45,663 nt of DNA, taken from NCBI GenBank assembly GCA_019115285.1, contig DXDU01000128.1:1-45663 (forward strand), written 5' to 3'. Below the pieces are notes generated by a model, which was given only the letters and a program-made list of their open reading frames with translations, did no database searches and was not told the origin of the DNA. This DNA comes from Candidatus Acutalibacter pullistercoris. GTDB taxonomy: Bacteria > Bacillota > Clostridia > Oscillospirales > Acutalibacteraceae. Numbering within the stretch: the first letter of the stretch is position 1; each line of letters starts with the position of its first letter. Below, in pieces: positions 4,217 to 15,641 of the stretch. A program made the position numbers and the translations under genes.

Positions 4217-4247
4217 AAAAGGGAGGCGCCAAGGCGCCTCCCTTTTT
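4217..4247. terminator. Bidirectional terminator between convergent genes
   Basis: Palindrome GGGAGGCGCC-AA-GGCGCCTCCC flanked by AAAA and TTTTT. Confidence 0.85.
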
Positions 4248-5491
4248 CAGTGCAGCTCGTAGTCTTTTACCAGGGCGTACAGGCGGCTGTCCACCTGGGC
4301 GGAGAGGCGCAGCCCTTCGGGGACGTACTCCTCTCCCGTCACCGCTCCCTCCTCCCGGAGCTTTGCCGCCAGTCCGCTTTTGGAAAAGGGCAGCAGCAGC
4401 TCTACGGGGAAGGTCTTCTCCGGCAGGTTCTCCTCAATGGCCTGGAGCAGTTCCTCCAGCCCCTCCCCCCGCAGCGCGCTGATGCGCACCGCCCCGGGGA
4501 GCCTGGGGGCCAGGTCCGGGTCCTGCACCGCGTCCCACTTGTTCAGCACCGGGATCATGGGGTGATCCCCCGCTCCCAGCTCCTCCAGCAGCTCCCGAGT
4601 GACCTGCAGGTGCTCCCCGGCCTCCGGGCTGGAGGCGTCGCACACGTTGAGCAGAATGTCCGCGGCGGCGGCCTGCTCCAAGGTGGACTTGAAGGCCTCC
4701 ACCAAATGGTGGGGCAGCCTGCGCAGCAGTCCCACCGTATCGATGAGCATCACCGTCTTCCCGCAGGGGAGCTTTAACGCCCGGGCGGTGGGATCCAGCG
4801 TGGCGAAGAGCTTGTCCTCCGCCAGCACCCCCGCCTGGGTCAGCTGGTTCATCAGGGTGGACTTCCCCGCGTTGGTGTAGCCCACCAGCGCCACGGTGAC
4901 CACCCCGTTCTTCTCCCGCCGGCGCTGGATCACCCCCCGGGCGGCCTCCACCTCCTGGAGCTGCTCCTTCAGGCTGCCGATGCGCCGCCGGATGTGCCGC
5001 CGGTCGGTCTCCAGCTTTGTCTCGCCGGGGCCCCGGGTGCCGATGCCGCCCCCCAGCCGGGACAGGGCCGCTCCCCGCCCGGTGAGCCGGGGCAGCAGGT
5101 ACTTCAGCTGGGCAAGCTCCACCTGGAGCTTGCCCTCCCGGCTCTTGGCCCGCAGGGCGAAGATGTCCAGGATCAAGGTGGTGCGGTCGATGACCCGCAC
5201 CCCGCAGATCTCCTCCAGGTTCCGGATTTGGGTGGGGGTCAGTTCCCGGTCGAAAATGACCAGGTCCAGCTCCTCCCGGCGCACCAGCTCCCCGGCCTCC
5301 TCCGCCATGCCCGAGCCCAGGCAGGTGGCGGTGTCCGGCGCCGGCCGCTTCTGGGTGAGGAAGAACGCCGCCTCCGCCCCGGCGCTGCGGGTCAGTTCCG
5401 CCAGCTCCGCCAAAGAGGCCTCCCCGTCGTATTCCCCTGTGTCCAGGCACACCAGCAGCGCCCGCTGGGGTTTTGTCTCATTTTCAAACAA
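4247..5491 (-). CDS. hflX: Ribosome-associated GTPase HflX
   Basis: 414 aa. GGIGTRGPGETKLETDRR, GYTNAGKSTLMNQLT, DTVGLLRRLPHHLVEAFKSTLEQAAAAD and NKWD. Confidence 0.95.
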   Translation of the reverse strand: MFENETKPQRALLVCLDTGEYDGEASLAELAELTRSAGAEAAFFLTQKRPAPDTATCLGSGMAEEAGELVRREELDLVIFDRELTPTQIRNLEEICGVRVIDRTTLILDIFALRAKSREGKLQVELAQLKYLLPRLTGRGAALSRLGGGIGTRGPGETKLETDRRHIRRRIGSLKEQLQEVEAARGVIQRRREKNGVVTVALVGYTNAGKSTLMNQLTQAGVLAEDKLFATLDPTARALKLPCGKTVMLIDTVGLLRRLPHHLVEAFKSTLEQAAAADILLNVCDASSPEAGEHLQVTRELLEELGAGDHPMIPVLNKWDAVQDPDLAPRLPGAVRISALRGEGLEELLQAIEENLPEKTFPVELLLPFSKSGLAAKLREEGAVTGEEYVPEGLRLSAQVDSRLYALVKDYELH

Positions 5492-5558: not shown

Positions 5559-5692
5559 CCCAGAAAAAGAGCCGCCCCCCAAGGAGCGGCCCTTTTCCCT
5601 TATTCCGTCTCTTCCCCCGTAAGGGTCAGCTCCCACGCCAGGTGCGCGGGAGCAGCCGGGACAGCGCTAGCCTGGTCTGGCCTTCCCCCGAG
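5559..5692 (-). pseudogene. Diverged partial copy of the XkdU-like gene 3' end plus terminator
   Basis: Parallels 5716-5846 nearly base for base. With a 1-nt frame correction it reads GQTRLALSRLLP.HLAWELTLTGEETE*, against GQARLALARLLPAHLAWELTLSGGETE* in the intact gene. Confidence 0.8.
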
Positions 5693-5754
5693 GCCGCCCC
5701 CGTGTCACCCTGAACCCAGAAAAAGAGCCGCCCCCCAAGGAGCGGCCCTTTTCC

Positions 5755-6294
5755 TTATTCTGTCTCTCCCCCCGAGAGGGTCAGCTCCCACGCCAGGTGA
5801 GCGGGCAGCAGCCGTGCCAGCGCCAGCCTGGCCTGGCCTTCCGTCACGTTCCCCAGCAGAGAGGCCGCCACCGCCAGGCCGCCGTCCTCTGTCTCTGTCA
5901 CCGTGCCTTGCAAACCGGCGGCAGGGAGCAGGCTCTCAAAGTCCTCTTTGGTGTGCAGGCCCCCGTGGGCCCCCAGCCCAGCCAGCAGCTCCCGGCGGCG
6001 GGTCTGGGCCTCCCCGGGGAGCACATCCCCCCACAGGAGCTTCTCCCATCGCTCCAGCCCAGGCCCCTGGGCGGTAGAGACGAACAGCTCCGCCAGCAGG
6101 TCCTCCAAAGCATCCTCCACCAGGGCGAACCCGGCGGCGTAGGCTGCCAGCTCTCCCTCCACCTGGGTGGAGCCGCCCAGGTCGTAGAGCCCGGTGGCCT
6201 CCAGCACCTGGGCCATGTGGGCCCCGGCGGAGATTCTCCCAACGCTTTGCGTCCCGCCGCTTCGCGGCTCAGCGGCCTGCGCCCGGGCCGTCAT
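5755..6294 (-). CDS. Phage tail/baseplate protein, XkdU-like (DUF2313-like)
   Basis: Directly follows the baseplate J gene with a TCAT (ATGA) overlap. ...GFALVEDALEDLLAELFVSTAQGPGLERWEKLLWG...RRRELLAGLGAHGGLHTKEDFESLL is typical of XkdU-type proteins. Confidence 0.65.
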   Translation of the reverse strand: MTARAQAAEPRSGGTQSVGRISAGAHMAQVLEATGLYDLGGSTQVEGELAAYAAGFALVEDALEDLLAELFVSTAQGPGLERWEKLLWGDVLPGEAQTRRRELLAGLGAHGGLHTKEDFESLLPAAGLQGTVTETEDGGLAVAASLLGNVTEGQARLALARLLPAHLAWELTLSGGETE

Positions 6295-7352
6295 GTGGCT
6301 TCTCCCAGGAGCACCGTGCCCAGCACAGGCAGCACTCCGTCCGTCCCGGCGATGTCCCGCATGTTGGCAGCGAAACTCAGCTTCTCCACCGCTGCCGCCT
6401 CCAGCAGCACCTGGGTCAGGTCTGTCAGGTACACCGGGTCCCCGATCTTCCGCTGGGCGAACCACGCCTCCAGGGCGGTTTCCATCACCTCCGCCGCCTG
6501 GGCGGCGTCCCCGCCGTTTTTCGGCTTGATGGTCCCGTACACGTTGACGGCGTAAGACACTGCGCTCTCCACCGAAACCGTCACCCCCAGCTCCCGCTGT
6601 GCCTGGATCAGGTCCTCCGCCTGCTGGAGCGCCGCCTCACTGGGAGCGGCCCCCTGGCCCCACAGGTACAGCCCCACCGTGCCGGGGCCGTCCTCCTGGG
6701 GCACCGCCTGGGCCAGGGTCACCCCCTCCACCGAGAGGGCCAGCTCCTCGTAAAAGCCGGCGGTGCCGCTGGCGGCCCGACGCGTCCAAGCCGCAAGGAT
6801 GCGCTCCCGGTAGCTGTCGTCCGGCTCCCGGTCCTCTCCCCCGGTAAAGGCCGCCTCGTTCACCACGTAGTCGATGCCGCTGACCGGGGTCACCAAGGTG
6901 TTGATGTACCCCGAGGCCGCGTTGCCCTGGGCGCCGCCCGCCACGGCCCTGGCGGGCACGTCCACCGTCAGCTCCCCGGCGGTGAGGGTCGCCTCCTCTG
7001 TGGTCTCGTACTCCACCGCCTCCTCCCCGCCGCTGGCCGCCACCGTCCCGGCGGGGATCACCAGGTTAAAATCCAGGGGCAGGTACCGGCTGAAGGTCAG
7101 CACCCCCGCCGCCTGTTTGGCCTCCCGGCGGGGCAGGCCCCGCTGGGCGCCGTGGAGGTCCAGCTCCTCCCCCCAGGCCGTCTGGGGGAAGGCCTGGCGG
7201 CCCAGCCACTCCAGCTCCCCTTCCAGCCGGAACAGCGCTCCCGCCAGCACCCGCAGCCGCAGCCCCAGGTCGGACACCGCCGTCACCTCCCGGCCCGTCT
7301 CCGCCCGGTAGGCCTCCTCCATCCTGGTCAAGATCCCTTGGTAGCTTTCCAT
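6291..7352 (-). CDS. Phage baseplate J-like protein (XkdT-like)
   Basis: Contains VIPAGTVAAS, ATEEATLTAGELTVDVPARAVAGGAQGNAASGYINTLVTPVSGIDYVVNEAAFTGGEDREPDDSYRERIL, the canonical baseplate_J pattern. Start set at MESYQGIL (7352). Confidence 0.92.
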   Translation of the reverse strand: MESYQGILTRMEEAYRAETGREVTAVSDLGLRLRVLAGALFRLEGELEWLGRQAFPQTAWGEELDLHGAQRGLPRREAKQAAGVLTFSRYLPLDFNLVIPAGTVAASGGEEAVEYETTEEATLTAGELTVDVPARAVAGGAQGNAASGYINTLVTPVSGIDYVVNEAAFTGGEDREPDDSYRERILAAWTRRAASGTAGFYEELALSVEGVTLAQAVPQEDGPGTVGLYLWGQGAAPSEAALQQAEDLIQAQRELGVTVSVESAVSYAVNVYGTIKPKNGGDAAQAAEVMETALEAWFAQRKIGDPVYLTDLTQVLLEAAAVEKLSFAANMRDIAGTDGVLPVLGTVLLGEAT

Positions 7353-7672
7353 ACCGTCACGCTCCCCTCTCCCAAAGGTGTTTGCAGGGTGAACACCACC
7401 CCGTCTTCCGTCTCCTGGGCGGAAACCGCCTGCACCCCCGGCAGGGACAGCAGCCCCTCGTTGGCCAGGGCCACCGCCCGCTCCAGGGCGTGCTCCTCCT
7501 CCCGGTCCCACAGGTAAAACCTGCTGCCCAGGGACCGGTCATAGGGCAGGCTCCCCTGCCTCATGGCGATGGCCATGGCCCCGTTCTGCAGCAGCTCTTC
7601 CAGGCCCTCCACCGTCTCCGGCAGGCCGGTGGGCCCCAGGGCCCAGTCCCCCTGCTCCCATTTCATGTCCAT
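7328..7672 (-). CDS. Phage protein XkdS-like (DUF2634/gpW-like baseplate wedge)
   Basis: 114 aa between gpV-like and baseplate J genes: GLPETVEGLEELLQNGAMAIAMRQGSLPYDRSLGSRFYLW. Confidence 0.6.
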   Translation of the reverse strand: MDMKWEQGDWALGPTGLPETVEGLEELLQNGAMAIAMRQGSLPYDRSLGSRFYLWDREEEHALERAVALANEGLLSLPGVQAVSAQETEDGVVFTLQTPLGEGSVTVWKATKGS

Positions 7673-7675
7673 GTG

Positions 7676-8005
7676 TCACTCCTCCTCTTTGGGCGGGAAC
7701 ACCTGCCCGTTGATGGTCACAGCGCCGTCCCGGCCCAGCAGGATCTCCGCGCCCCCCGCCGAGTACAGCCGGACCTCTCCCGGCTCCAGGGCGGTGTCCG
7801 GGGCGTTGGGCAGCCCGGCGCAGTAGCCGTCCAGCAACACCGCCTGCAAGCCCTGGGCGGCGGAGGAGGAAAACCCGTAGGGCAGCAGCTGCTGGGGGGA
7901 TCGGTACCGGCTCTCCCCCTGCACCGCGAAGCCGTTTTCCTGCTCTACCAGCCCCACCTGGACCTTGGCCCCCTGCCGGGGGAACAACCGCCTGGTCAGC
8001 CACAC
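7676..8005 (-). CDS. Phage baseplate assembly protein V/XkdR-like (GTG start inferred)
   Basis: Same frame as ORF 8314..7676. The product VWLTRRLFPRQGAKVQVGLVEQENGFAVQGESRY...VRLYSAGGAEILLGRDGAVTINGQVFP has a gp45/gpV-like C-terminal pattern and position. Confidence 0.5.
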   Translation of the reverse strand: MWLTRRLFPRQGAKVQVGLVEQENGFAVQGESRYRSPQQLLPYGFSSSAAQGLQAVLLDGYCAGLPNAPDTALEPGEVRLYSAGGAEILLGRDGAVTINGQVFPPKEEE

Positions 8006-8892
8006 GGGCCATCCCCCCTCTCCAGCACCGCCTGGGTCCGGGCCCCTTGCCGGTCCCACAGCCACCGGGCCTCCCGCACCGGGCAGTTCGCAAACTTTCC
8101 CAGCCCGGGGACCTCCACCCAGGCCTTGGCCCCCCGCAGGGGCCAGAAGCTCCCGGGGCACTCCACGGTGAGCTGCCAGCTCTCCCGCAGCCCCTGGGCC
8201 AGGGTCTCCTTGGGGTCCTCCCCGCTTTGGGAGCTGCAATACCGCCTGCGCTGTACCGCCGCGCCCTCCCGGCGGTAGGGGGTGTCGTAAGTCCCCCGAA
8301 AGCTCTGCTGCCACACTTCGCTCAGCTCCTTACAGGGTTTGAAAGAAAGCTCCCCCCAGGAGGCCGTGCCCAAGTCCACGGAAAAAGAGGGCAGGCCGTC
8401 GCAGCGCAGGGCCCCAGCCTCGTCCACATAGGGGACCGTGCCCAGCCACCCCCGGCAGAAGTCCTCCACCGCCTCCCAGCAGCTCATACCCTTTTCCACG
8501 GTGAGCTGTCCCTGCTTCTGAGACCAGTCCCCCACCACCCGGGAAAGCCCCAGGCCTTGCAGAACCAGCCGCTCCAGCTTTTCCAGAGAGGGCCGGGAGA
8601 GGGTCTCCGGCGGGGCCTCGCTGTCCAGGAGCAGTGCCTCCCCGCTGCGGCACACCAGTTCCGTCTCCCGGCCCTGGGGCCCCACCCGCAGGTTCTGCTC
8701 GTCCACCAGCCCCCAAAACACCCGCCGGCCCGAAAGCTCCACCGTCACCCGCACAAGCTCCGGCCACGCCTCCCCGGGGAACACCGCCTCCAGCAGGTCC
8801 GCCGGGGCCTCCCGGTCGTAGGTGAGCTCCGCCTCCCTGGGTTCCCCCAAACAAAGTGCGTTGCCCTTTCGGTCTGTCGCCCACACCTTCAT
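7996..8892 (-). CDS. Phage tail hub protein, XkdQ-like
   Basis: MKVWATDRKGNALCLGEPREAELTYDREAPADLLEAVFPGE..., position after the LysM protein, C-terminal TQAVLERG. Start chosen at 8892; the ORF is open further upstream. Confidence 0.6.
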   Translation of the reverse strand: MKVWATDRKGNALCLGEPREAELTYDREAPADLLEAVFPGEAWPELVRVTVELSGRRVFWGLVDEQNLRVGPQGRETELVCRSGEALLLDSEAPPETLSRPSLEKLERLVLQGLGLSRVVGDWSQKQGQLTVEKGMSCWEAVEDFCRGWLGTVPYVDEAGALRCDGLPSFSVDLGTASWGELSFKPCKELSEVWQQSFRGTYDTPYRREGAAVQRRRYCSSQSGEDPKETLAQGLRESWQLTVECPGSFWPLRGAKAWVEVPGLGKFANCPVREARWLWDRQGARTQAVLERGDGPCG

Positions 8893-9404
8893 GGAATCCA
8901 CACCTCCTGTCCTTCCTCCAGCACCGCCACGTCCCGTATCTGGGGATTGGCCCGGGCCAGGTCCTCCACTGTCTTGCCGTAGCGCCAGGCGTAGTCCCAA
9001 AGGCTCTCCCCCGCCAGGGCCTGGTGCCAGCCCCGGCCCTCGTAGGGGGCGGCGGCCCGGTACTCTGTAAAGCTGAATTTGTACCGCACCGGCCCGGCCC
9101 CCGGATCCCCCAGCAGGTCCAAGCCGTCCAGCACCGCCAAAAAGGGAGGCAGCCCAGGCAGCTGCAAACAGCCTGGCCCTCCTTTTCGGAACTCCTCCTC
9201 CAAGGCGGACCACTGTTCCCAGCGGTCCTCCCCGGCGAAGTACCCCTCCCCTCGGATCTTCCTCTTGGCCTGTCCCAGGTCTTCCAGGCGGCTGCCCCGA
9301 TAGGGCAGGGCCGTTTCCTCCACCCGGCGCTCCAGGGTGACAGACAAGGTGCTGGGGTTGTGCTTCCAGGCAAACGCCCGAAAGCGCATGGTCATCAGAT
9401 TCAT
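8889..9404 (-). CDS. Phage LysM-domain protein (XkdP-like)
   Basis: RFRAFAWKHNPSTLSVTLERR..., C-terminal LysM-like GRGWHQALAGESLWDYAWRYGKTVEDLARANPQIRDVAVLEEGQEVWIP. Start at 9404 preceded by AGGAGGAGAG. Confidence 0.7.
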   Translation of the reverse strand: MNLMTMRFRAFAWKHNPSTLSVTLERRVEETALPYRGSRLEDLGQAKRKIRGEGYFAGEDRWEQWSALEEEFRKGGPGCLQLPGLPPFLAVLDGLDLLGDPGAGPVRYKFSFTEYRAAAPYEGRGWHQALAGESLWDYAWRYGKTVEDLARANPQIRDVAVLEEGQEVWIP

Positions 9405-9414
9405 CTCTCTCCTC

Positions 9415-9492
9415 CTAACGCCTGGCGGGGTACCGCCTGCTGTCCCGCTCCAGCTCCCGGGAGATCTCCCGGGCCCGCTCCTGTCCTTCCAC
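9415..9492 (-). CDS. 25-aa micro-ORF (GTG start) at the possible deletion junction of the phage locus
   Basis: VEGQERAREISRELERDSRRYPARR, starting within the stop region of the upstream gene and ending at the RBS of the LysM gene. Confidence 0.3.
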   Translation of the reverse strand: MEGQERAREISRELERDSRRYPARR

Positions 9493-9495
9493 AGC

Positions 9496-10188
9496 TCATC
9501 CCTCCAGTCCGCTGCCGTCCTCCGCCGTCTCCCGGCGATAAGAGACAAACACGCCCCTATTCTCCCCGGGAGACAGCTCCTTCCACCGGCAGCCGGTGTA
9601 CGTCTCCGACCCCAGCACAGCGGTAAAGCTGGCCAGGTTCTCCCAGCCGGTCACGTCCACCCCCTCCAGGGTCACTTGGTACCGGGTCCGCTGCCCTGTC
9701 ACGGCGAAGGGCACATCCTCCCCCACCGCCCGCAGCTCTTCTCCCTCCTGGGTCATGGCGACGGTCCACCCCGCCGCCTGGCACTGCTTGCCCCCCAGGG
9801 TGATCTCCCCCTGGCTGACCCCTCCCACAAAGTCCAGACAGCAGGCGATGGTCCGCAGCCCCGTGTCCCTGTCCAGGGCCACGGCGCCCCGGCGCAGGCC
9901 GGAAAACCCGGCGGACAGCTCCCGGGCCGCCGCCTCCAGAGCCTCCAGGGCGGCCTCCCCGTCCTGGGGCTCCCCCGCCCTGGGGAGGAACAGGACAAAC
10001 TCCAGCGTCCCCTTCCACCGGGACCCCTCCAGCCGCTCTTCCTTCACCTGTCCCGTCACGGTGAGCTTCTCCACCCACCGCTTCCCCGGCTGGTTTCCCC
10101 AGGCCGGCAGCACCGCCCCCTGGGGCAGCTCCTCCTGCAGCTTCTCTGTCAGCTCCTCCAGCAGATCATTGGCCCGCACCGTTTTCAC
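9496..10188 (-). CDS. Phage minor/tail-terminator-position protein, apparently bipartite
   Basis: 230 aa. N-terminal half MKTVRANDLLEELTEKLQEELP...TLEFVLFLPRAG; C-terminal beta-rich half GEDVPFAVTGQRTRYQVTLEGVDVTGWENLASFTAVLGSETYTGCRW. Function inferred from position. Confidence 0.45.
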   Translation of the reverse strand: MKTVRANDLLEELTEKLQEELPQGAVLPAWGNQPGKRWVEKLTVTGQVKEERLEGSRWKGTLEFVLFLPRAGEPQDGEAALEALEAAARELSAGFSGLRRGAVALDRDTGLRTIACCLDFVGGVSQGEITLGGKQCQAAGWTVAMTQEGEELRAVGEDVPFAVTGQRTRYQVTLEGVDVTGWENLASFTAVLGSETYTGCRWKELSPGENRGVFVSYRRETAEDGSGLEG

Positions 10189-10507
10189 CTCCCTCCTCCC
10201 AGCGCTCCAGCAGCGCCCGCAGGCACAGCTGGCGTTGGTCCAGTGTCACAGCCTCCACCCGAAGCACCCGGTAGGTTTCCTCCCCCTGCCGCAGCAATTC
10301 CCCGCAGGCCAGCTCCTGGGCCCAGCCGGTGAACCAATACAGCGGCCGGGGCAGCCGACCCAGCTGGTGGAACAGTTCCTCCGTCAGGGCCTCCCCGCCG
10401 CCCCGGTCCGCCGCGATCAGCCCCCGGCCCTGGGTCTTCTCCCCCTGGGCCGTCTCCCGCTCCACCGGCAGAAAGTACCGGAACAGCCGTTTCGCCACGT
10501 CCTCCAT
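10166..10507 (-). CDS. Phage head-tail connector-position protein
   Basis: 113 aa ORF in the phage operon overlapping its downstream neighbour; assigned by position only. Confidence 0.4.
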   Translation of the reverse strand: MEDVAKRLFRYFLPVERETAQGEKTQGRGLIAADRGGGEALTEELFHQLGRLPRPLYWFTGWAQELACGELLRQGEETYRVLRVEAVTLDQRQLCLRALLERWEEGGENGAGQ

Positions 10508-10510
10508 GGC

Positions 10511-10879
10511 TCACACTCCTTTGCAGTAAAACTCCTGGGAGAGCAGAGCCGGCCCGCACAGCCGCTGCTGCTCCTCCGCCAGGGCCCGGGCCTTCTGCTC
10601 CCGTCCCGCCCAGTCGATCTTCACCTCCCCGGCGGTGAGGGCCTCCGGGGCCAGGGCCCCGTCGGCCAGCGTCAGCTGGTAAAAGGCCTTGGCCGCCGCC
10701 AGGCTGATCAACGCCTCCTCCCACTGGTCCGCCCTGGGGCCCGCCGCCGTCTCCACCCACTGGGCGCACTGGTGGCACAGCGCCTCCCACAGCGCCTGCC
10801 GGGCCTCCCCCGCCTGCTGGGGGTTCTCCCCGCAGTAGGTCAAAAACCGCTCCAGCACCTGTTCCCGATCCAGCTTCAT
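10511..10879 (-). CDS. Phage head-tail connector-position protein (XkdH/gp6-like position)
   Basis: 122 aa helical ORF immediately after the capsid gene; assigned by position only. Confidence 0.4.
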   Translation of the reverse strand: MKLDREQVLERFLTYCGENPQQAGEARQALWEALCHQCAQWVETAAGPRADQWEEALISLAAAKAFYQLTLADGALAPEALTAGEVKIDWAGREQKARALAEEQQRLCGPALLSQEFYCKGV

Positions 10880-10903
10880 CCTCTCAGCTCCCTCCTTTTC
10901 CTG

Positions 10904-10936
10904 CCAGAAAAAAGGAAAGGCGGGGCATCCCCGCCT
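10904..10936 (-). terminator. Hairpin plus T-run directly after the major capsid gene
   Basis: Minus strand GGCGGGG-ATG-CCCCGCC then TTTCCTTTTTT. Confidence 0.7.
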
Positions 10937-10949
10937 CCCCCGTCCTTTC

Positions 10950-11954
10950 TCAGGCCTCGGTGTACGTCAGCCCCTGGGCCGCCCCTTGGTAGATCCGGGC
11001 AAAGCCGGTGACCACAGAGATGGAAGCCCGGTCCAGCTGCCGGTCCATCAGCCGGTCGTAGTCGGTCTGGATCTCCCCGGCCTGCACCATCTCCAGGGCG
11101 CAGTTCTTGTCAAAGGCCAGGATCTTCTTCTCCTCCATCCCCGGCACGTGGAGGAGCTTGGCGCCCAGAGGCGTCACCAGCCGGCCGGTGCCCTGGAAGT
11201 TCATCCCCGCCTGGGCGTCCTTAAACTCGCTGATCTGCAGCAGCTTCTCCATGGCGGCGGTGCCGGCCACCACGGTGTTCAGGGTAAAGGGCGCCAGCTT
11301 CCCCCACAGGCCGATAAAGTCCCCGTAGTTGGGGGTGCCGGTGGCGCAGGTCACCCCGGGCTTGCTGCCGTCCCCGTTGAGCAGGGCGTCCACCGCGTCC
11401 AGCATCTGAGAGGCCGCCATCGAGGCGCCGATCTGCCGCAGGGCCACGGTGAGCAGGTCCAGCTTCTGGAACCGCAGGGCCTCGTAGCTGGTCATCAGCG
11501 TGCGTCCCCGCTTGCGCAGCTTCACCAGGCCGTCGTTGACCCGGATGGTGGTGGCAGGCAGCTGGGCCCCCTGGGCCACTGCCTTCAGGGGAGCGGTCTC
11601 CTCCCCCTCCACGGTGATGGTCCTGTAGTCCAGCCCGTCGATCTTGGTCACCGTGGCCACCATGTCCTTCAGCTGGTCGGCGGCCTCCATACCCTGGCCC
11701 ACCGCCCGGGCCACGTACTCTGGGAACAGGGCCGCGCTGGAGGAGCTCTGGAAGAACTTCTCCACCGGGTCAGAGCCGGGCCCGCTCACCCGGATGCCGA
11801 ACCGCTTGAGCTGCCGCTGGTAGGCGTCCAGGCCCTCCAAGGGGGTGCCCCGGTACTGCTCCGAGCTGTCCAGCCCCTCCAGCACCTGGGTAAAACTCTT
11901 GCCGGGGACGCCGTACATCCCCTTTTCCAACGTGAGATTCTCAAAATAAGCCAT
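10950..11954 (-). CDS. Phage major capsid protein (HK97-fold/XkdG-like)
   Basis: MAYFENLTLEKGMYGVPGKSFTQVLEGLDSSEQYRGTPLEGLDAYQRQLKRFGIRVSGPGSDPVEKFFQSSSSAALFPEYVARAVGQGME. Follows protease and decoration genes. Confidence 0.85.
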   Translation of the reverse strand: MAYFENLTLEKGMYGVPGKSFTQVLEGLDSSEQYRGTPLEGLDAYQRQLKRFGIRVSGPGSDPVEKFFQSSSSAALFPEYVARAVGQGMEAADQLKDMVATVTKIDGLDYRTITVEGEETAPLKAVAQGAQLPATTIRVNDGLVKLRKRGRTLMTSYEALRFQKLDLLTVALRQIGASMAASQMLDAVDALLNGDGSKPGVTCATGTPNYGDFIGLWGKLAPFTLNTVVAGTAAMEKLLQISEFKDAQAGMNFQGTGRLVTPLGAKLLHVPGMEEKKILAFDKNCALEMVQAGEIQTDYDRLMDRQLDRASISVVTGFARIYQGAAQGLTYTEA

Positions 11955-11974
11955 GCGCTTTCCCTCCTTTTTTC

Positions 11975-12319
11975 TCACAGGAACACACCGCAGCGCCCGG
12001 CGGCGGCGTCCACCCACACCACCAGGGCGTCACGGCCAGCCGCCGTCGCCTTCTCCAGCTCCCCGTCCGCGGAGGAAGCCACCGCCTGCCAGCCCACCGT
12101 CAGGGCGGTGTCGCAGGGGACTTCCACATACCCTGCCACCTGCACCGCGGCCAGGCCCTCCCCCAGGGAGGTCACCACCCCGGCGGGGATCTCCCCGTCT
12201 GCGGAACAGGGCCCCACCTGGCCGTTGGCGGTGAGTTTCACCAGGGCCCCGGCCTTCGTGCCGGCGGCTGCCTCAAAGCTGGCCACCACCGCGCCGATCT
12301 GCTCAAAACCTACCTTCAT
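11975..12319 (-). CDS. Phage head decoration-like protein (DUF2190/gpD-like)
   Basis: 114 aa, MKVGFEQIGAVVASFEAAAGTKAGALVKLTANGQVGPCSADGEIPAGVVTSLGEGLAAVQVAGYVEVPCD; sits between protease and capsid genes. Confidence 0.6.
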   Translation of the reverse strand: MKVGFEQIGAVVASFEAAAGTKAGALVKLTANGQVGPCSADGEIPAGVVTSLGEGLAAVQVAGYVEVPCDTALTVGWQAVASSADGELEKATAAGRDALVVWVDAAAGRCGVFL

Positions 12320-12337
12320 TCTGTTCTCCTCCTTTTC

Positions 12338-13225
12338 TCAGATCCTGTATTCCCCGTTGCTGTCAGGGCGTTTCTCCCGGTCCTCCGGCGCCAGCTGGGG
12401 CTTTAAGGGCATGGCCTCCTGCACCATGGCCTGATAGCTCTTTCCCAGCTGGGACAGCTCCCCGAGAGACAGCCCCCGCATGGCGGACTTCATCACACTG
12501 GCGGGCAGGTCCGGCTGGGCCAGGGCAGCGCACCGCAGCACGTCCCGCTCCAGGCTCTCCCGGTAGGCTTCCCCCCACCGGGCCTTCTCCTCCAGCTCCC
12601 GCACCCGCCGCTCCAGGGCAGCTTCCCGCTCCCCCTGGAGAAAGCTCTTGGTCACCCCGGCCTCCCGCTGGGCGGGCACCGCCACAAAAGAGCACTCGTA
12701 GGCGTCGGTGGGCTCCAGCAGCACCAGGTGGCCCAAGCCCTCCGGGTACTCCTTGCCCTTCTCATGGCCGCAGCGCTCTTTGCCGCACAGGCCGCAGACC
12801 TTCCGCTTCACGCTGCAGCTGACGCTCACCTCCTTGAGGATCCCGCTCTCGATGAGCTCGATGACCTCCCCGTTCCCCTGGGTCTTGGGCAGGTAAGCCC
12901 TGGCGGTGAGCTGTACGTACTCCTCTCCCGCCCGGGTCTTCCTGCCGGGCTCCCGGCGCAGGGCGGTGCGGTAGATCCTGGCGGTCTGGTTCACGCTCTT
13001 CTGCTCGTGGTCGAAGATGCAGGTCTTCCCCAAGAACAGCTCTCCCAAAGTCTCTAAGGCCTCCACGGAGAACCGCTCAAAGTCCCGGTCGATCTCGTTG
13101 TCGCACAGCGCCAGGGAGAAGGCGTACACCTCCTGTGGTCCGTACTCCCGCCGGGTGTACCGGTTGATCTCCCTCATCTCCTCCTGGTCCGGGACGGCGC
13201 TTTTCAGCACAGTTCCCTCTTTCAT
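12338..13225 (-). CDS. Phage prohead protease/XkdF-like protein
   Basis: ALCDNEIDRDFERFSVEALETLGELFLGKTCIFDHEQ, CGLCGKERCGHEKGKEY, EPTDAYECSFVAVPAQREAGVTKSF. Confidence 0.8.
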   Translation of the reverse strand: MKEGTVLKSAVPDQEEMREINRYTRREYGPQEVYAFSLALCDNEIDRDFERFSVEALETLGELFLGKTCIFDHEQKSVNQTARIYRTALRREPGRKTRAGEEYVQLTARAYLPKTQGNGEVIELIESGILKEVSVSCSVKRKVCGLCGKERCGHEKGKEYPEGLGHLVLLEPTDAYECSFVAVPAQREAGVTKSFLQGEREAALERRVRELEEKARWGEAYRESLERDVLRCAALAQPDLPASVMKSAMRGLSLGELSQLGKSYQAMVQEAMPLKPQLAPEDREKRPDSNGEYRI

Positions 13226-13232
13226 CTGTCAC

Positions 13233-14354
13233 TCACTCCCCTTTCTCAGCTTCCAGCTCCTGTTCCAGCTTCCTGGCCCTGGCGGTCAGGTACCTGGCGT
13301 TGGCGTGGTCCACCTCGTCCTGCATGGTGATCTCCTCCCACTCCACCTGGCACCCGGGCTCATAGCCCTCCAGCGCCAGCCACGTGTCGCAGATCTTCCG
13401 CACCACCGGGGTGAGCACCCGCCGGTAGGCGTCCAGCTCGCTGGTGAGCATGTCCGCCTGCTGGCTGCTCATCCGCTCCGTAGAGGACCAGGAAAGCCCC
13501 AGCAGGAAGGGGGGCACCCCCAGTTTTGCCACGATCTGCTCCAGCATCTGCCGCACCGGCACCTGGCTGTCCAGAATCTGGTTGTCCGCCCCAATGGCCC
13601 GAATGCTCACGTCCCCCACGGCGATAAAGTCGCAGGGCTCCCGGCTGTCCATGGCCTTCTTCCACTCTCTGGCCACCTGCTGGGCCCGCTCCCCCGCCGG
13701 TGTCCCGCCAAAGCCGTCGGGCTTGCAGGTCACGGCGAACTTCACGTTCCCCAGCCGCTGCCAGTTCACCCCCAGGGTCTCGTAGATCTGCAGCAGCACC
13801 CCGCTGACGAAGGGCAGCCCCCGCAGCACCGAGGTACCCCAGGGCTTCCCCGCCTCCGGGTTCAAAGCCGAGACCAGCAGCAGCTTGGGGAAGGGGCACT
13901 CCCTTCTTCCCCCCTGCTCCCGGACCCACACCTTCACCCCCAAGGGGCCGTCCTCCTCCAGATCCAGCTGGTCCAGCCCCGCGTTGTACAGGGCCCCGAT
14001 CTTCCCTCCCCGGAGCACCATCTCCCCCACGGCCGTGCCGTAGGTGAGCAGCTCCTCAAAGTAGATCCCCAGGAACTCTCCCGCTCCCGCCCCGGCCCCG
14101 TTGACCTGCACCGTGTCCAGGAACTCCTCCAGGCCCTCCTGGGCCCGGCTGTCCCGGCAGGTGACGTGAAAGTCCCCCAGCAGCCGGCGAAGCTTGTAGA
14201 GGGAGGCGTCGATGATGGGCACATTCTGCCGCAGGGCCCGGTAGAGCTCCCGCTCCCCCGCCCCCTGGGGCAGCCCCGCCCCCCAGCTGCGGGAAGCGGT
14301 CTGCACAGTCACCGCCTGGGAGCGGTCCCGCCTTCTCCAGTGAAACAACGCCAC
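13233..14354 (-). CDS. Phage portal protein (GTG start VALFHWRRRDRSQ; the track ORF extends to 14507)
   Basis: ...ELYRALRQNVPIIDASLYKLRRLLGDFHV...EELLTYGTAVGEMVLRGG...LLQIYETLGVNWQRLGNVKFAVTCKP...LGVPPFLLGLSWSSTERMSSQQADMLTSEL. GTG preceded by AGAGGTGAG. Confidence 0.85.
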   Translation of the reverse strand: MALFHWRRRDRSQAVTVQTASRSWGAGLPQGAGERELYRALRQNVPIIDASLYKLRRLLGDFHVTCRDSRAQEGLEEFLDTVQVNGAGAGAGEFLGIYFEELLTYGTAVGEMVLRGGKIGALYNAGLDQLDLEEDGPLGVKVWVREQGGRRECPFPKLLLVSALNPEAGKPWGTSVLRGLPFVSGVLLQIYETLGVNWQRLGNVKFAVTCKPDGFGGTPAGERAQQVAREWKKAMDSREPCDFIAVGDVSIRAIGADNQILDSQVPVRQMLEQIVAKLGVPPFLLGLSWSSTERMSSQQADMLTSELDAYRRVLTPVVRKICDTWLALEGYEPGCQVEWEEITMQDEVDHANARYLTARARKLEQELEAEKGE

Positions 14355-14430
14355 CTCACCTCTTTCCCTTTTCCTTCCATGGCTCTCTCCTTTCTGGGCG
14401 CCGCCCGTTTTCCTCCCCCTGGAAAAAGAG

Positions 14431-14460
14431 AAAAAGTTGCCCCGTACTAGGCAACTTTTC
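14431..14460. terminator. Strong hairpin in the leader of the phage operon
   Basis: AAAAGTTGCC-CCGTACTA-GGCAACTTTT, with T-rich sequence on both sides. Confidence 0.75.
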
Positions 14461-14548
14461 CCTCCCTTTTCAAAAAACGTCCTTATTTTTCCTCCCGACT
14501 TTTCCATTTCCCTTGTCTTACAAGTCTCTTACATCTCCCTTCCCCGTA

Positions 14549-14610: not shown

Positions 14611-14943
14611 ATGGCAGACTACAACAATTACGACCGCGGCCCCAGCGGGACCCCTATGTACGACCCGCCCCAGTACCAGCCCCAGCCCGGCATGGCCCCG
14701 CCTCCCGGTTATCCTCAAAAAAGCCGCATGGCCGCCGGCATCCTGGCCATCCTCCTGGGGACGTACGGCGTCCACAGCTTCTATCTGGGCAACACCTCCC
14801 GGGGGCTGCTCCAGCTCCTTCTCACCCTGCTCACCTGCGGCATCGGCGCCCTGATCATGTTCATCTGGGGCGTGGTGGACGGCGTTCGGATCTTAGACGG
14901 CCGCATCAACATCGACGCCAACGGCGTCTACCTGAAAGACTGA
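14611..14943 (+). CDS. TM2 domain-containing protein
   Basis: KSRMAAGILAILLGTYGVHSFYLGNTSRGLLQLLLTLLTCGIGALIMFIWGVVDGVRIL is a canonical TM2 pattern. Confidence 0.9.
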   Translation: MADYNNYDRGPSGTPMYDPPQYQPQPGMAPPPGYPQKSRMAAGILAILLGTYGVHSFYLGNTSRGLLQLLLTLLTCGIGALIMFIWGVVDGVRILDGRINIDANGVYLKD

Positions 14944-14972: not shown

Positions 14973-15641
14973 ATGAACGAATTTGACACCCAGGAAGAGA
15001 AGGCCGGCAAGCCGGAGCCCTCTTCCGCCCCCCAGAACGAGCGGCAGGTCCCCCACCTGACCCTGGAAACAGACCTGCCCGAAGACCAGCCTAAGGAACA
15101 AGACCAGCATTTCCCCGGCTCCTCCGCCGGAGACTTCCACATGCCAGAGCCGCCCCAGGCTCCCCAGCCTCCCGGCTCCCAGCCCTACACAAACCAAGAG
15201 GCCTACCAGCAGTACCAGGCCCCGCCCCAGTACACCCAGCCGGACTACACCCAGTCCGCCCAGCCCCACCCGGACTACACCCAGCCCGGCTACGGAGGCT
15301 ACCAGCCTCCCCAGTACAGCCAGAGTTCCCCCTACGGCCAGCCCTACCAGCAGCCCTATTACCAGTACGTGCCCACCCCGCCTCCGGGCTATCACCAGAA
15401 GAGCCGCATGGCCGCCGGCCTGCTGGCCATCCTCCTGGGCGTCCTGGGCGTGCACAACTTCTACCTGGGCTTCACCTCCCGGGGGGTGGTGCAGCTGGTG
15501 GTGAGCCTGGTGGGGGGCATCCTCACCTGCGGCATGGCCACCCTGGCCGTGTGGATCTGGGCCTTCATCGAAGGCGTCCTGCTCCTCTCCGGCAGCCGCT
15601 CCCGCATGTTCGACGGCAACGGCGTCTCCCTCATCGACTGA
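14973..15641 (+). CDS. TM2 domain-containing protein with long P/Q/Y/S-rich N-terminal region
   Basis: C-terminal KSRMAAGLLAILLGVLGVHNFYLGFTSRGVVQLVVSLVGGILTCGMATLAVWIWAFIEGVLLL; N-terminal low complexity YTQPDYTQSAQPHPDYTQPGYGGYQPPQY. Confidence 0.9.
   Translation: MNEFDTQEEKAGKPEPSSAPQNERQVPHLTLETDLPEDQPKEQDQHFPGSSAGDFHMPEPPQAPQPPGSQPYTNQEAYQQYQAPPQYTQPDYTQSAQPHPDYTQPGYGGYQPPQYSQSSPYGQPYQQPYYQYVPTPPPGYHQKSRMAAGLLAILLGVLGVHNFYLGFTSRGVVQLVVSLVGGILTCGMATLAVWIWAFIEGVLLLSGSRSRMFDGNGVSLID

Follow-up and report, generated by a model that had tools for sequence, protein, structure and literature searches.

PBSX, the defective prophage of Bacillus subtilis, packages host DNA and retains a terminase, sheath, tube, tape measure, fibres, lysis genes and regulators; RcGTA and the other alphaproteobacterial GTAs come from a different phage ancestor, encode their own terminase and have demonstrated gene transfer. 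For the FpGTA I and FpGTA II elements of Faecalibacterium prausnitzii (Borodovich et al. 2026, PMC12946183), a compact chromosomal operon, near-ubiquitous in the genus, runs TerS-TerL-portal-scaffold-capsid and then continues into tail genes, and FpGTA I encloses 8–9 kb of host DNA in ~40 nm particles whose tails are not visible. The same study reported GTA-like packaging in Oscillospiraceae and Ruminococcus, where it assigned no operon (PMC12946183). The window analysed here, a 45,663-nt contig of Candidatus Acutalibacter pullistercoris, contains a module that can be likened to FpGTA I by organisation, not by protein sequence, given the same head order and the lack of integrase and replication genes. 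It differs in having no TerS-TerL, holin, endolysin or fibre gene, and in carrying its baseplate genes within the same operon, whereas those of FpGTA occupy a second one. FpGTA particles have a very short or invisible tail, a feature that the module's predicted particle would share. The TerS-TerL-portal-scaffold-capsid order, complete in relatives such as Ruminococcus albus (L246, L250), is represented in the window by portal, XkdF-like protein, decoration protein and capsid. The module also follows the PBSX order (portal-protease-capsid-XkdH/I/J-P-Q-R-S-T-U), but lacks the remaining PBSX parts, and of the sheath, tube and tape measure of a contractile element only a terminator-fused tube domain is found. 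Like RcGTA, it is a selected particle operon of phage origin that has been passed on vertically; with encapsulins it shares a host-kept capsid of phage ancestry.

The module comprises 13 tightly packed, intact ORFs on the minus strand, running from 14348 to 5755 without a frameshift and with ATGA-type overlaps at P/Q and T/U. Several starts lie later than those of the longest ORFs (portal, TTG at 14348; P, 9404; Q, 8892; T, 7352; U, 6294). The flanks were identified by Pfam as divergent TM2 genes (14611–14943 and 14973–15641) on one side and hflX (4247..5491, minus strand) on the other. This packing, and the location between hflX and TM2 genes, are as the original prediction had described them. 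The head genes begin with the portal (13233..14348; phrog_30703, E 2e-118), whose TTG start was set by congener comparison, followed by a probable prohead protease/scaffold of 295 aa at the XkdF position (12338..13225; phrog_16951, 9e-93, and a weak head-maturation-protease match); the model of the latter combines a beta domain with C-terminal helices, and its top Foldseek matches, which are weak, are herpesvirus assemblins. Downstream lie a decoration/minor head protein (11975..12319; phrog_4588, 3e-14), the major capsid protein (10950..11954; phrog_3922, 6e-81; Pfam Phage_capsid_4, 7e-12), a head–tail connector at the XkdH position (10511..10879), whose profile is present in 40/40 family loci, and a head-completion/stopper-like protein at the XkdI position (10166..10507; stopper-position profile). 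The 230-aa product of 9496..10188 fuses a tail terminator with a tube domain, as judged from profiles for both (the tube part being phrog_27038); its AlphaFold model (pLDDT 88.6) is best matched in Foldseek by the lambda gpU terminator and phage connector complexes. The baseplate genes encode an XkdP-like hub/tube initiator (8889..9404; Pfam LysM 1e-6, DNA_circ_N 3e-6), an XkdQ-like hub (7996..8892; phrog_177, 7e-13), a gpV/XkdR-like spike protein of uncertain start, assigned by position and profile (7676..8005; phrog_25991, 3e-4), a gp25/XkdS-like wedge (7328..7672; phrog_120, phrog_43), a Baseplate_J/XkdT wedge (6291..7352; PF04865, 1e-50) and a Mu gp48/XkdU-like wedge (5755..6294; PF10076, 7e-6; phrog_203). 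All of these genes are on the minus strand. Pfam and PHROG family matches revealed no terminase, sheath, tape measure, fibre, holin, lysis gene or integrase in the module stretch, and no replication genes lie alongside the module in the window or its relatives; both thus present a phage-derived structural cluster free of integration and replication functions, as in a GTA. The predicted absence of terminase and of anything fibre- or lysis-like was therefore borne out, whereas the supposed loss of the entire K–O block holds for sheath and tape measure only: the block is not wholly gone, because the tube domain sits fused to the tail terminator.

A homologue of the capsid was found in 112 of the 200 family genomes (79/135 genera), one per genome, as well as in 109/249 genomes of a second family and in 71/394 order-wide. 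Matches beyond the order are only weak; three were examined and resemble ordinary prophages, two of them with ~1,770-aa tape measures. No isolated phage carries the module's capsid or portal at >30% identity, and three faecal ‘Bacteriophage sp.’ matches that were checked proved to be host chromosome pieces bearing the module. Synteny is also kept, with hflX immediately downstream of the module in many genera, and module distances track hflX distances (Mantel r 0.73–0.82; 0/2000 permutations). Homology, synteny and single copy are thereby shown, and indicate a phage-derived, vertically inherited operon spread across the order. In relatives without P–U, a second baseplate operon was sought and rejected, since Baseplate_J was not found in the five genomes checked or in several reduced genomes of a second family.

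Extreme GC3 bias made counting-method dN/dS misleading, and a codon model was therefore used. Where dS was measurable (it is saturated for many pairs), omega was 0.04–0.08 for head genes and 0.03–0.08 for baseplate genes, close to the 0.03–0.06 of hflX. Values of 0.04–0.08 were also obtained for terminase-less pairs, e.g. L084–L158 and, for the head genes, the window and L150. The head and baseplate genes of the window clade are thus intact and under purifying selection, and the module, as GTAs do, combines such selection with a long history of vertical descent at a conserved place in the chromosome. Domestication, which the original prediction had proposed, is strongly supported because the module is order-wide, single-copy, conserved in site and under purifying selection; the opposing possibility of a strain-specific prophage remnant is rejected on the capsid homologues across the family, a second family and the order and on congruence with hflX.

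TerS-TerL lies directly upstream of the portal in 39/40 fetched family loci (Terminase_6N 2e-15, Terminase_2 5e-13), whereas in the window's genus TerL is present only in L151, L155 and L157 and is absent from 15 loci, the window and 14 congeners, which retain the remaining module. In those three congeners TerS-TerL occupies the site that in the window is a ~80-bp spacer (14349..14429, minus strand) between a leader hairpin and the portal. Relatives carry TerS-TerL at the same locus; the operon is therefore a conserved GTA-like one from which the terminase was deleted in the window's genus, once or twice. No break separates TM2 from portal in the window or in the 14 further congeneric loci, so that an assembly gap concealing the terminase, as had been considered, is rejected. 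Searches for this TerL family found no homologue elsewhere in seven terminase-less genomes (90–99% complete) or in the window species' own genome (87% complete), which argues against relocation of the terminase in most terminase-less genomes. The 12 terminase-less loci of the window clade are monophyletic, and the deletion is old, being common to about a dozen species. A short putative fibre-like gene is also missing from this clade. Some relatives hold fibre, sheath and separate tube genes at the same locus, and sheath and tube occur in other families. The original view, that PBSX genes had been pared to a clean subset by selection, is accordingly only half right, in that the genes are conserved and selected but relatives carry more of them in place; the alternative of a full prophage in relatives and a recent deletion here is correct as to their terminase, but the deletion is old and the relatives have no full prophage. 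At the gene level, the loci form a series of reduction from short contractile tail to sheath-less to terminase-less. The module is a candidate operon, order-wide and largely unrecognised, for the GTA-like DNA packaging recently observed in Ruminococcus and gut Oscillospiraceae. Sister species that differ in having the terminase have the rest of the particle in common; this natural experiment makes it testable whether selection on such particles concerns gene transfer at all.

Among the products originally offered, a GTA-like particle fits best. An encapsulin-like compartment, with a cargo gene and no portal, is unsupported, as there is no cargo gene and the operon retains portal, protease, connectors and baseplate alike; a contractile tailocin or eCIS, with sheath and no head, would show the opposite pattern. 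We consider it likely that the module encodes a domesticated GTA-family particle that, in the window clade, no longer encodes DNA packaging. The ancestral operon would have packaged DNA with its own TerS-TerL; following their deletion in the window's genus, and the loss of the putative fibre in the window clade, the head and baseplate genes would have been held intact by purifying selection. The particle may comprise a small capsid, its protease and portal, connectors, a tube reduced to a short ring, and a baseplate that lacks a sheath. It may still be made and released through lysis of some cells, either DNA-free and acting as a protein particle or filled by a terminase in trans; that no lysis gene is linked to the module speaks against this reading. 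Because the motor was deleted yet the rest is intact and under selection, the particle is probably still useful for something other than packaging its own DNA. That it remains a working GTA, with packaging supplied in trans by a resident prophage's terminase or by one from another family, is doubtful: the head genes, including the portal, are strongly constrained, distant terminases occur in congeners G205, G201, G202 and G125, and FpGTA genes are divided between two loci (PMC12946183), but this family's own TerL is absent from the seven near-complete terminase-less genomes noted above.

Slow decay of an operon made dispensable by terminase loss is compatible with modules that are in pieces in congeners G203, G208 and G224 and absent in G214, G216, G222 and G226, as it is with the missing fibre-like gene and with amino-acid change, which when scaled to hflX is slightly greater between terminase-less loci than between those with terminase. 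However, the 13 intact frames, the low omega of terminase-less pairs and the survival of the operon in about a dozen species since a single loss render this reading unlikely. An ordinary defective PBSX-like prophage, caught at one site without domestication, would account for the PBSX-like families and gene order, but is highly improbable, and already disfavoured by the evidence of vertical inheritance, given one copy per genome, the same neighbours across genera, the congruence with hflX and the lack of integrase, replication genes and phage relatives. Within the preferred GTA-family reading, we tentatively suggest a DNA-free protein particle, its capsid, portal and sheath-less baseplate kept for killing, signalling or protein delivery and controlled by the conserved leader hairpin.

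This terminator-like hairpin (AAAAGTTGCC..GGCAACTTTTT; 14430..14461, minus strand), located before the first module gene, matches no family in Rfam. Under strict criteria it was found in 11/17 congeneric loci, compared to 0 in 20 shuffles, and it covaries, with compensatory changes at 6/12 pairs. At the other end, the sequence contains an intrinsic terminator that closes the module (5720..5752, minus strand) and a second copy of it at 5564–5596.

The module consists of 13 minus-strand genes (14348 to 5755) lying between divergent TM2 genes and hflX (4247–5491), all intact, as the original prediction of a closely packed PBSX-type head and baseplate subset had held. Profile searches matched a portal, a protease/scaffold candidate, a decoration protein, the major capsid protein, and baseplate proteins (LysM/DNA_circ_N hub, second hub, gp25-like, Baseplate_J and Mu gp48-like), and also bore out the predicted gaps, finding no terminase, sheath, tape measure, fibre, integrase or lysis gene among the module genes. 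The supposed loss of the whole XkdK–O block stands for sheath and tape measure and fails for the tube: the minus-strand 230-aa gene at 9496–10188 is, on its predicted structure, a fusion of tail terminator and tube domain, with a lambda gpU-like fold in its N-terminal half (AlphaFold pLDDT 88.6) and a match to the tube-position family phrog_27038 in its second half. The XkdF-position protein (295 aa) is likely a protease/scaffold, since the model has a beta domain and C-terminal helices, and herpesvirus assemblins are its top, though weak, structural matches. Directly before hflX, the 3′ end of gene U is tandemly duplicated with its terminator (5560–5790; terminator copies at 5720–5752 and 5564–5596, 156 bp apart).

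Comparison of 20-kb loci from 40 genomes of the window's family gave the order TerS–TerL–portal–F–(decoration)–capsid–H–I–J–P–Q–R–S–T–U, where letters denote PBSX Xkd positions and P–U the baseplate genes. Small and large terminase (Terminase_2 and Terminase_6N in Pfam) occur in 39 of the 40, the sole exception being the congeneric locus L084, so the window's module has lost them, and the predicted domesticated subset is not clean in this respect. P–U are absent from five family loci; L112, L114, L116, L120 and L122 hold head genes only, with Baseplate_J nowhere in those genomes. Many family loci carry, 3′ of U, a ~160-residue gene with a tail-fibre-like N-terminal start and only weak library matches, which we read as a putative tail fibre. 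A sheath (Phage_sheath_1C) is present in L106 and L118, and most loci of another family have a sheath, a separate tube gene and a small ORF replacing the tape measure. Sheath and tube without a long tape measure, seen in L106, L118, L197–L200, L203–L205, L209, L211 and L212, apparently specify very short contractile tails. Ruminococcus-type loci are cut down to TerS–TerL–portal–F–capsid–H–Q. Tail loss across the module family is stepwise, from short contractile to sheath-less, a direction that we infer from phage ancestry. One locus of another family (L198) has a holin-like ORF directly after U (1193–1636), which suggests that lysis genes once belonged to the ancestral operon.

Within the window's genus the capsid occurs in 22 of 29 genomes, and loci with flanking sequence show two divergent TM2 genes and then the module, followed in many species by hflX. 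TerS–TerL lie between TM2 and portal, where the window lacks them, in L151, L155 and L157, which form one clade; the window and 14 other congeneric loci lack both genes. The window belongs to a monophyletic clade of 12, and the pattern needs no more than one or two losses. Searches with a TerL profile of the module family found no match in the window species' own genome (87% complete) or in seven terminase-less genomes (90–99% complete); a few other congeneric genomes hold distant terminases, presumably prophage genes. The fibre-like gene is missing in the window's clade and kept in the other terminase-less clade. In L167 (genome G208, contig C16) capsid gene pieces lie ~126 kb apart, suggesting rearrangement through the module.

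The module is far from strain-specific. Exactly one capsid homologue was found in each of 112 of 200 family genomes (79 of 135 genera; 99 of 157 high-quality genomes), and homologues, nearly always single, in 71 of 394 genomes order-wide; a second family had them in 109 of 249. In a class-wide sample, matches beyond the order were weak, and three such loci resemble ordinary prophages; in two of them the tape measure runs to ~1,770 residues. Named genomes covered by the scan included Ruminococcus albus 8 and KH2T6. Phage searches found the capsid or portal in no isolated phage; near matches among viral records were unannotated faecal 'Bacteriophage sp.' scaffolds. The three checked, L368 (MT835508), L369 (MT835769) and L370 (MT835952), are host chromosome with the module, bearing beside it what we take to be genes for a ribosomal protein, secY or recG, among others. 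Many ~10-kb IMG/VR entries look like the module alone called as virus.

In many other genera, too, the module is followed directly by hflX, and across 21 loci portal, capsid, F, T and Q distances track hflX distances (Mantel r 0.73–0.82; 0 of 2000 permutations reached the observed r). Because hflX is a linked gene, this test by itself is compatible with joint transfer of the segment, which is unlikely because the neighbouring genes recur from genus to genus and the module is single-copy.

Extreme GC3 makes counting methods underestimate dS; omega was taken from a codon model with F3x4 frequencies, for terminase-less pairs with estimable dS. Values were purifying rather than neutral (head genes 0.04–0.08, baseplate genes 0.03–0.08, hflX 0.03–0.06), and omega = 1 was rejected in each such pair. 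For the window versus L150, head omega was 0.071 (dS 1.6) and hflX 0.052; several baseplate comparisons are saturated, this one among them (dS 9), and count for little. The terminase-less module is thus still under selection, though broken or lost in some congeners; the predicted domestication is strongly supported by order-wide occurrence, single copy, conserved site and purifying selection.

In Faecalibacterium, FpGTA operon I encodes TerS, TerL, portal, scaffold, capsid and tail genes, and operon II baseplate, fibre and lysis genes; its particles (~40 nm, without visible tails) carry 8–9 kb of host DNA, and GTA-like packaging also occurs in Oscillospiraceae and Ruminococcus, with no operon assigned there (Borodovich et al. 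2026, PMC12946183). The module family shares this gene organisation, which makes it a strong candidate for that operon. The window's module is a terminase-less derivative of this GTA-like family; we stop short of classing it as a GTA, since it lacks the terminase, a defining GTA feature. We favour a particle that is still made and retained, whether DNA-free or filled in trans. Slow decay, to which the modules in pieces or lost in some congeners would point, is countered by the selection in terminase-less pairs.

Upstream of the first module gene, on the side of the divergent TM2 genes, a terminator-like hairpin (14430–14461) may act as a leader attenuator. Under strict criteria it recurs in 11 of the 17 congeneric loci and in 15 of the 58 others, whereas neither 20 dinucleotide shuffles nor windows taken within the module yield any; Rfam gave no match. 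Across 20 sequences drawn from two families, 97% of cells are paired and compensatory changes occur at 6 of 12 pairs; this covariation count is biased upward because the sequences were chosen for forming inverted repeats. A role as TM2 terminator is ruled out, TM2 being transcribed away from it. Upstream of the TM2 gene lies a direct repeat, TGTAAG-N5-TGTAAG (14517–14533), with related repeats at the same place in congeners, which we take to resemble a WalR/PhoP-type box.
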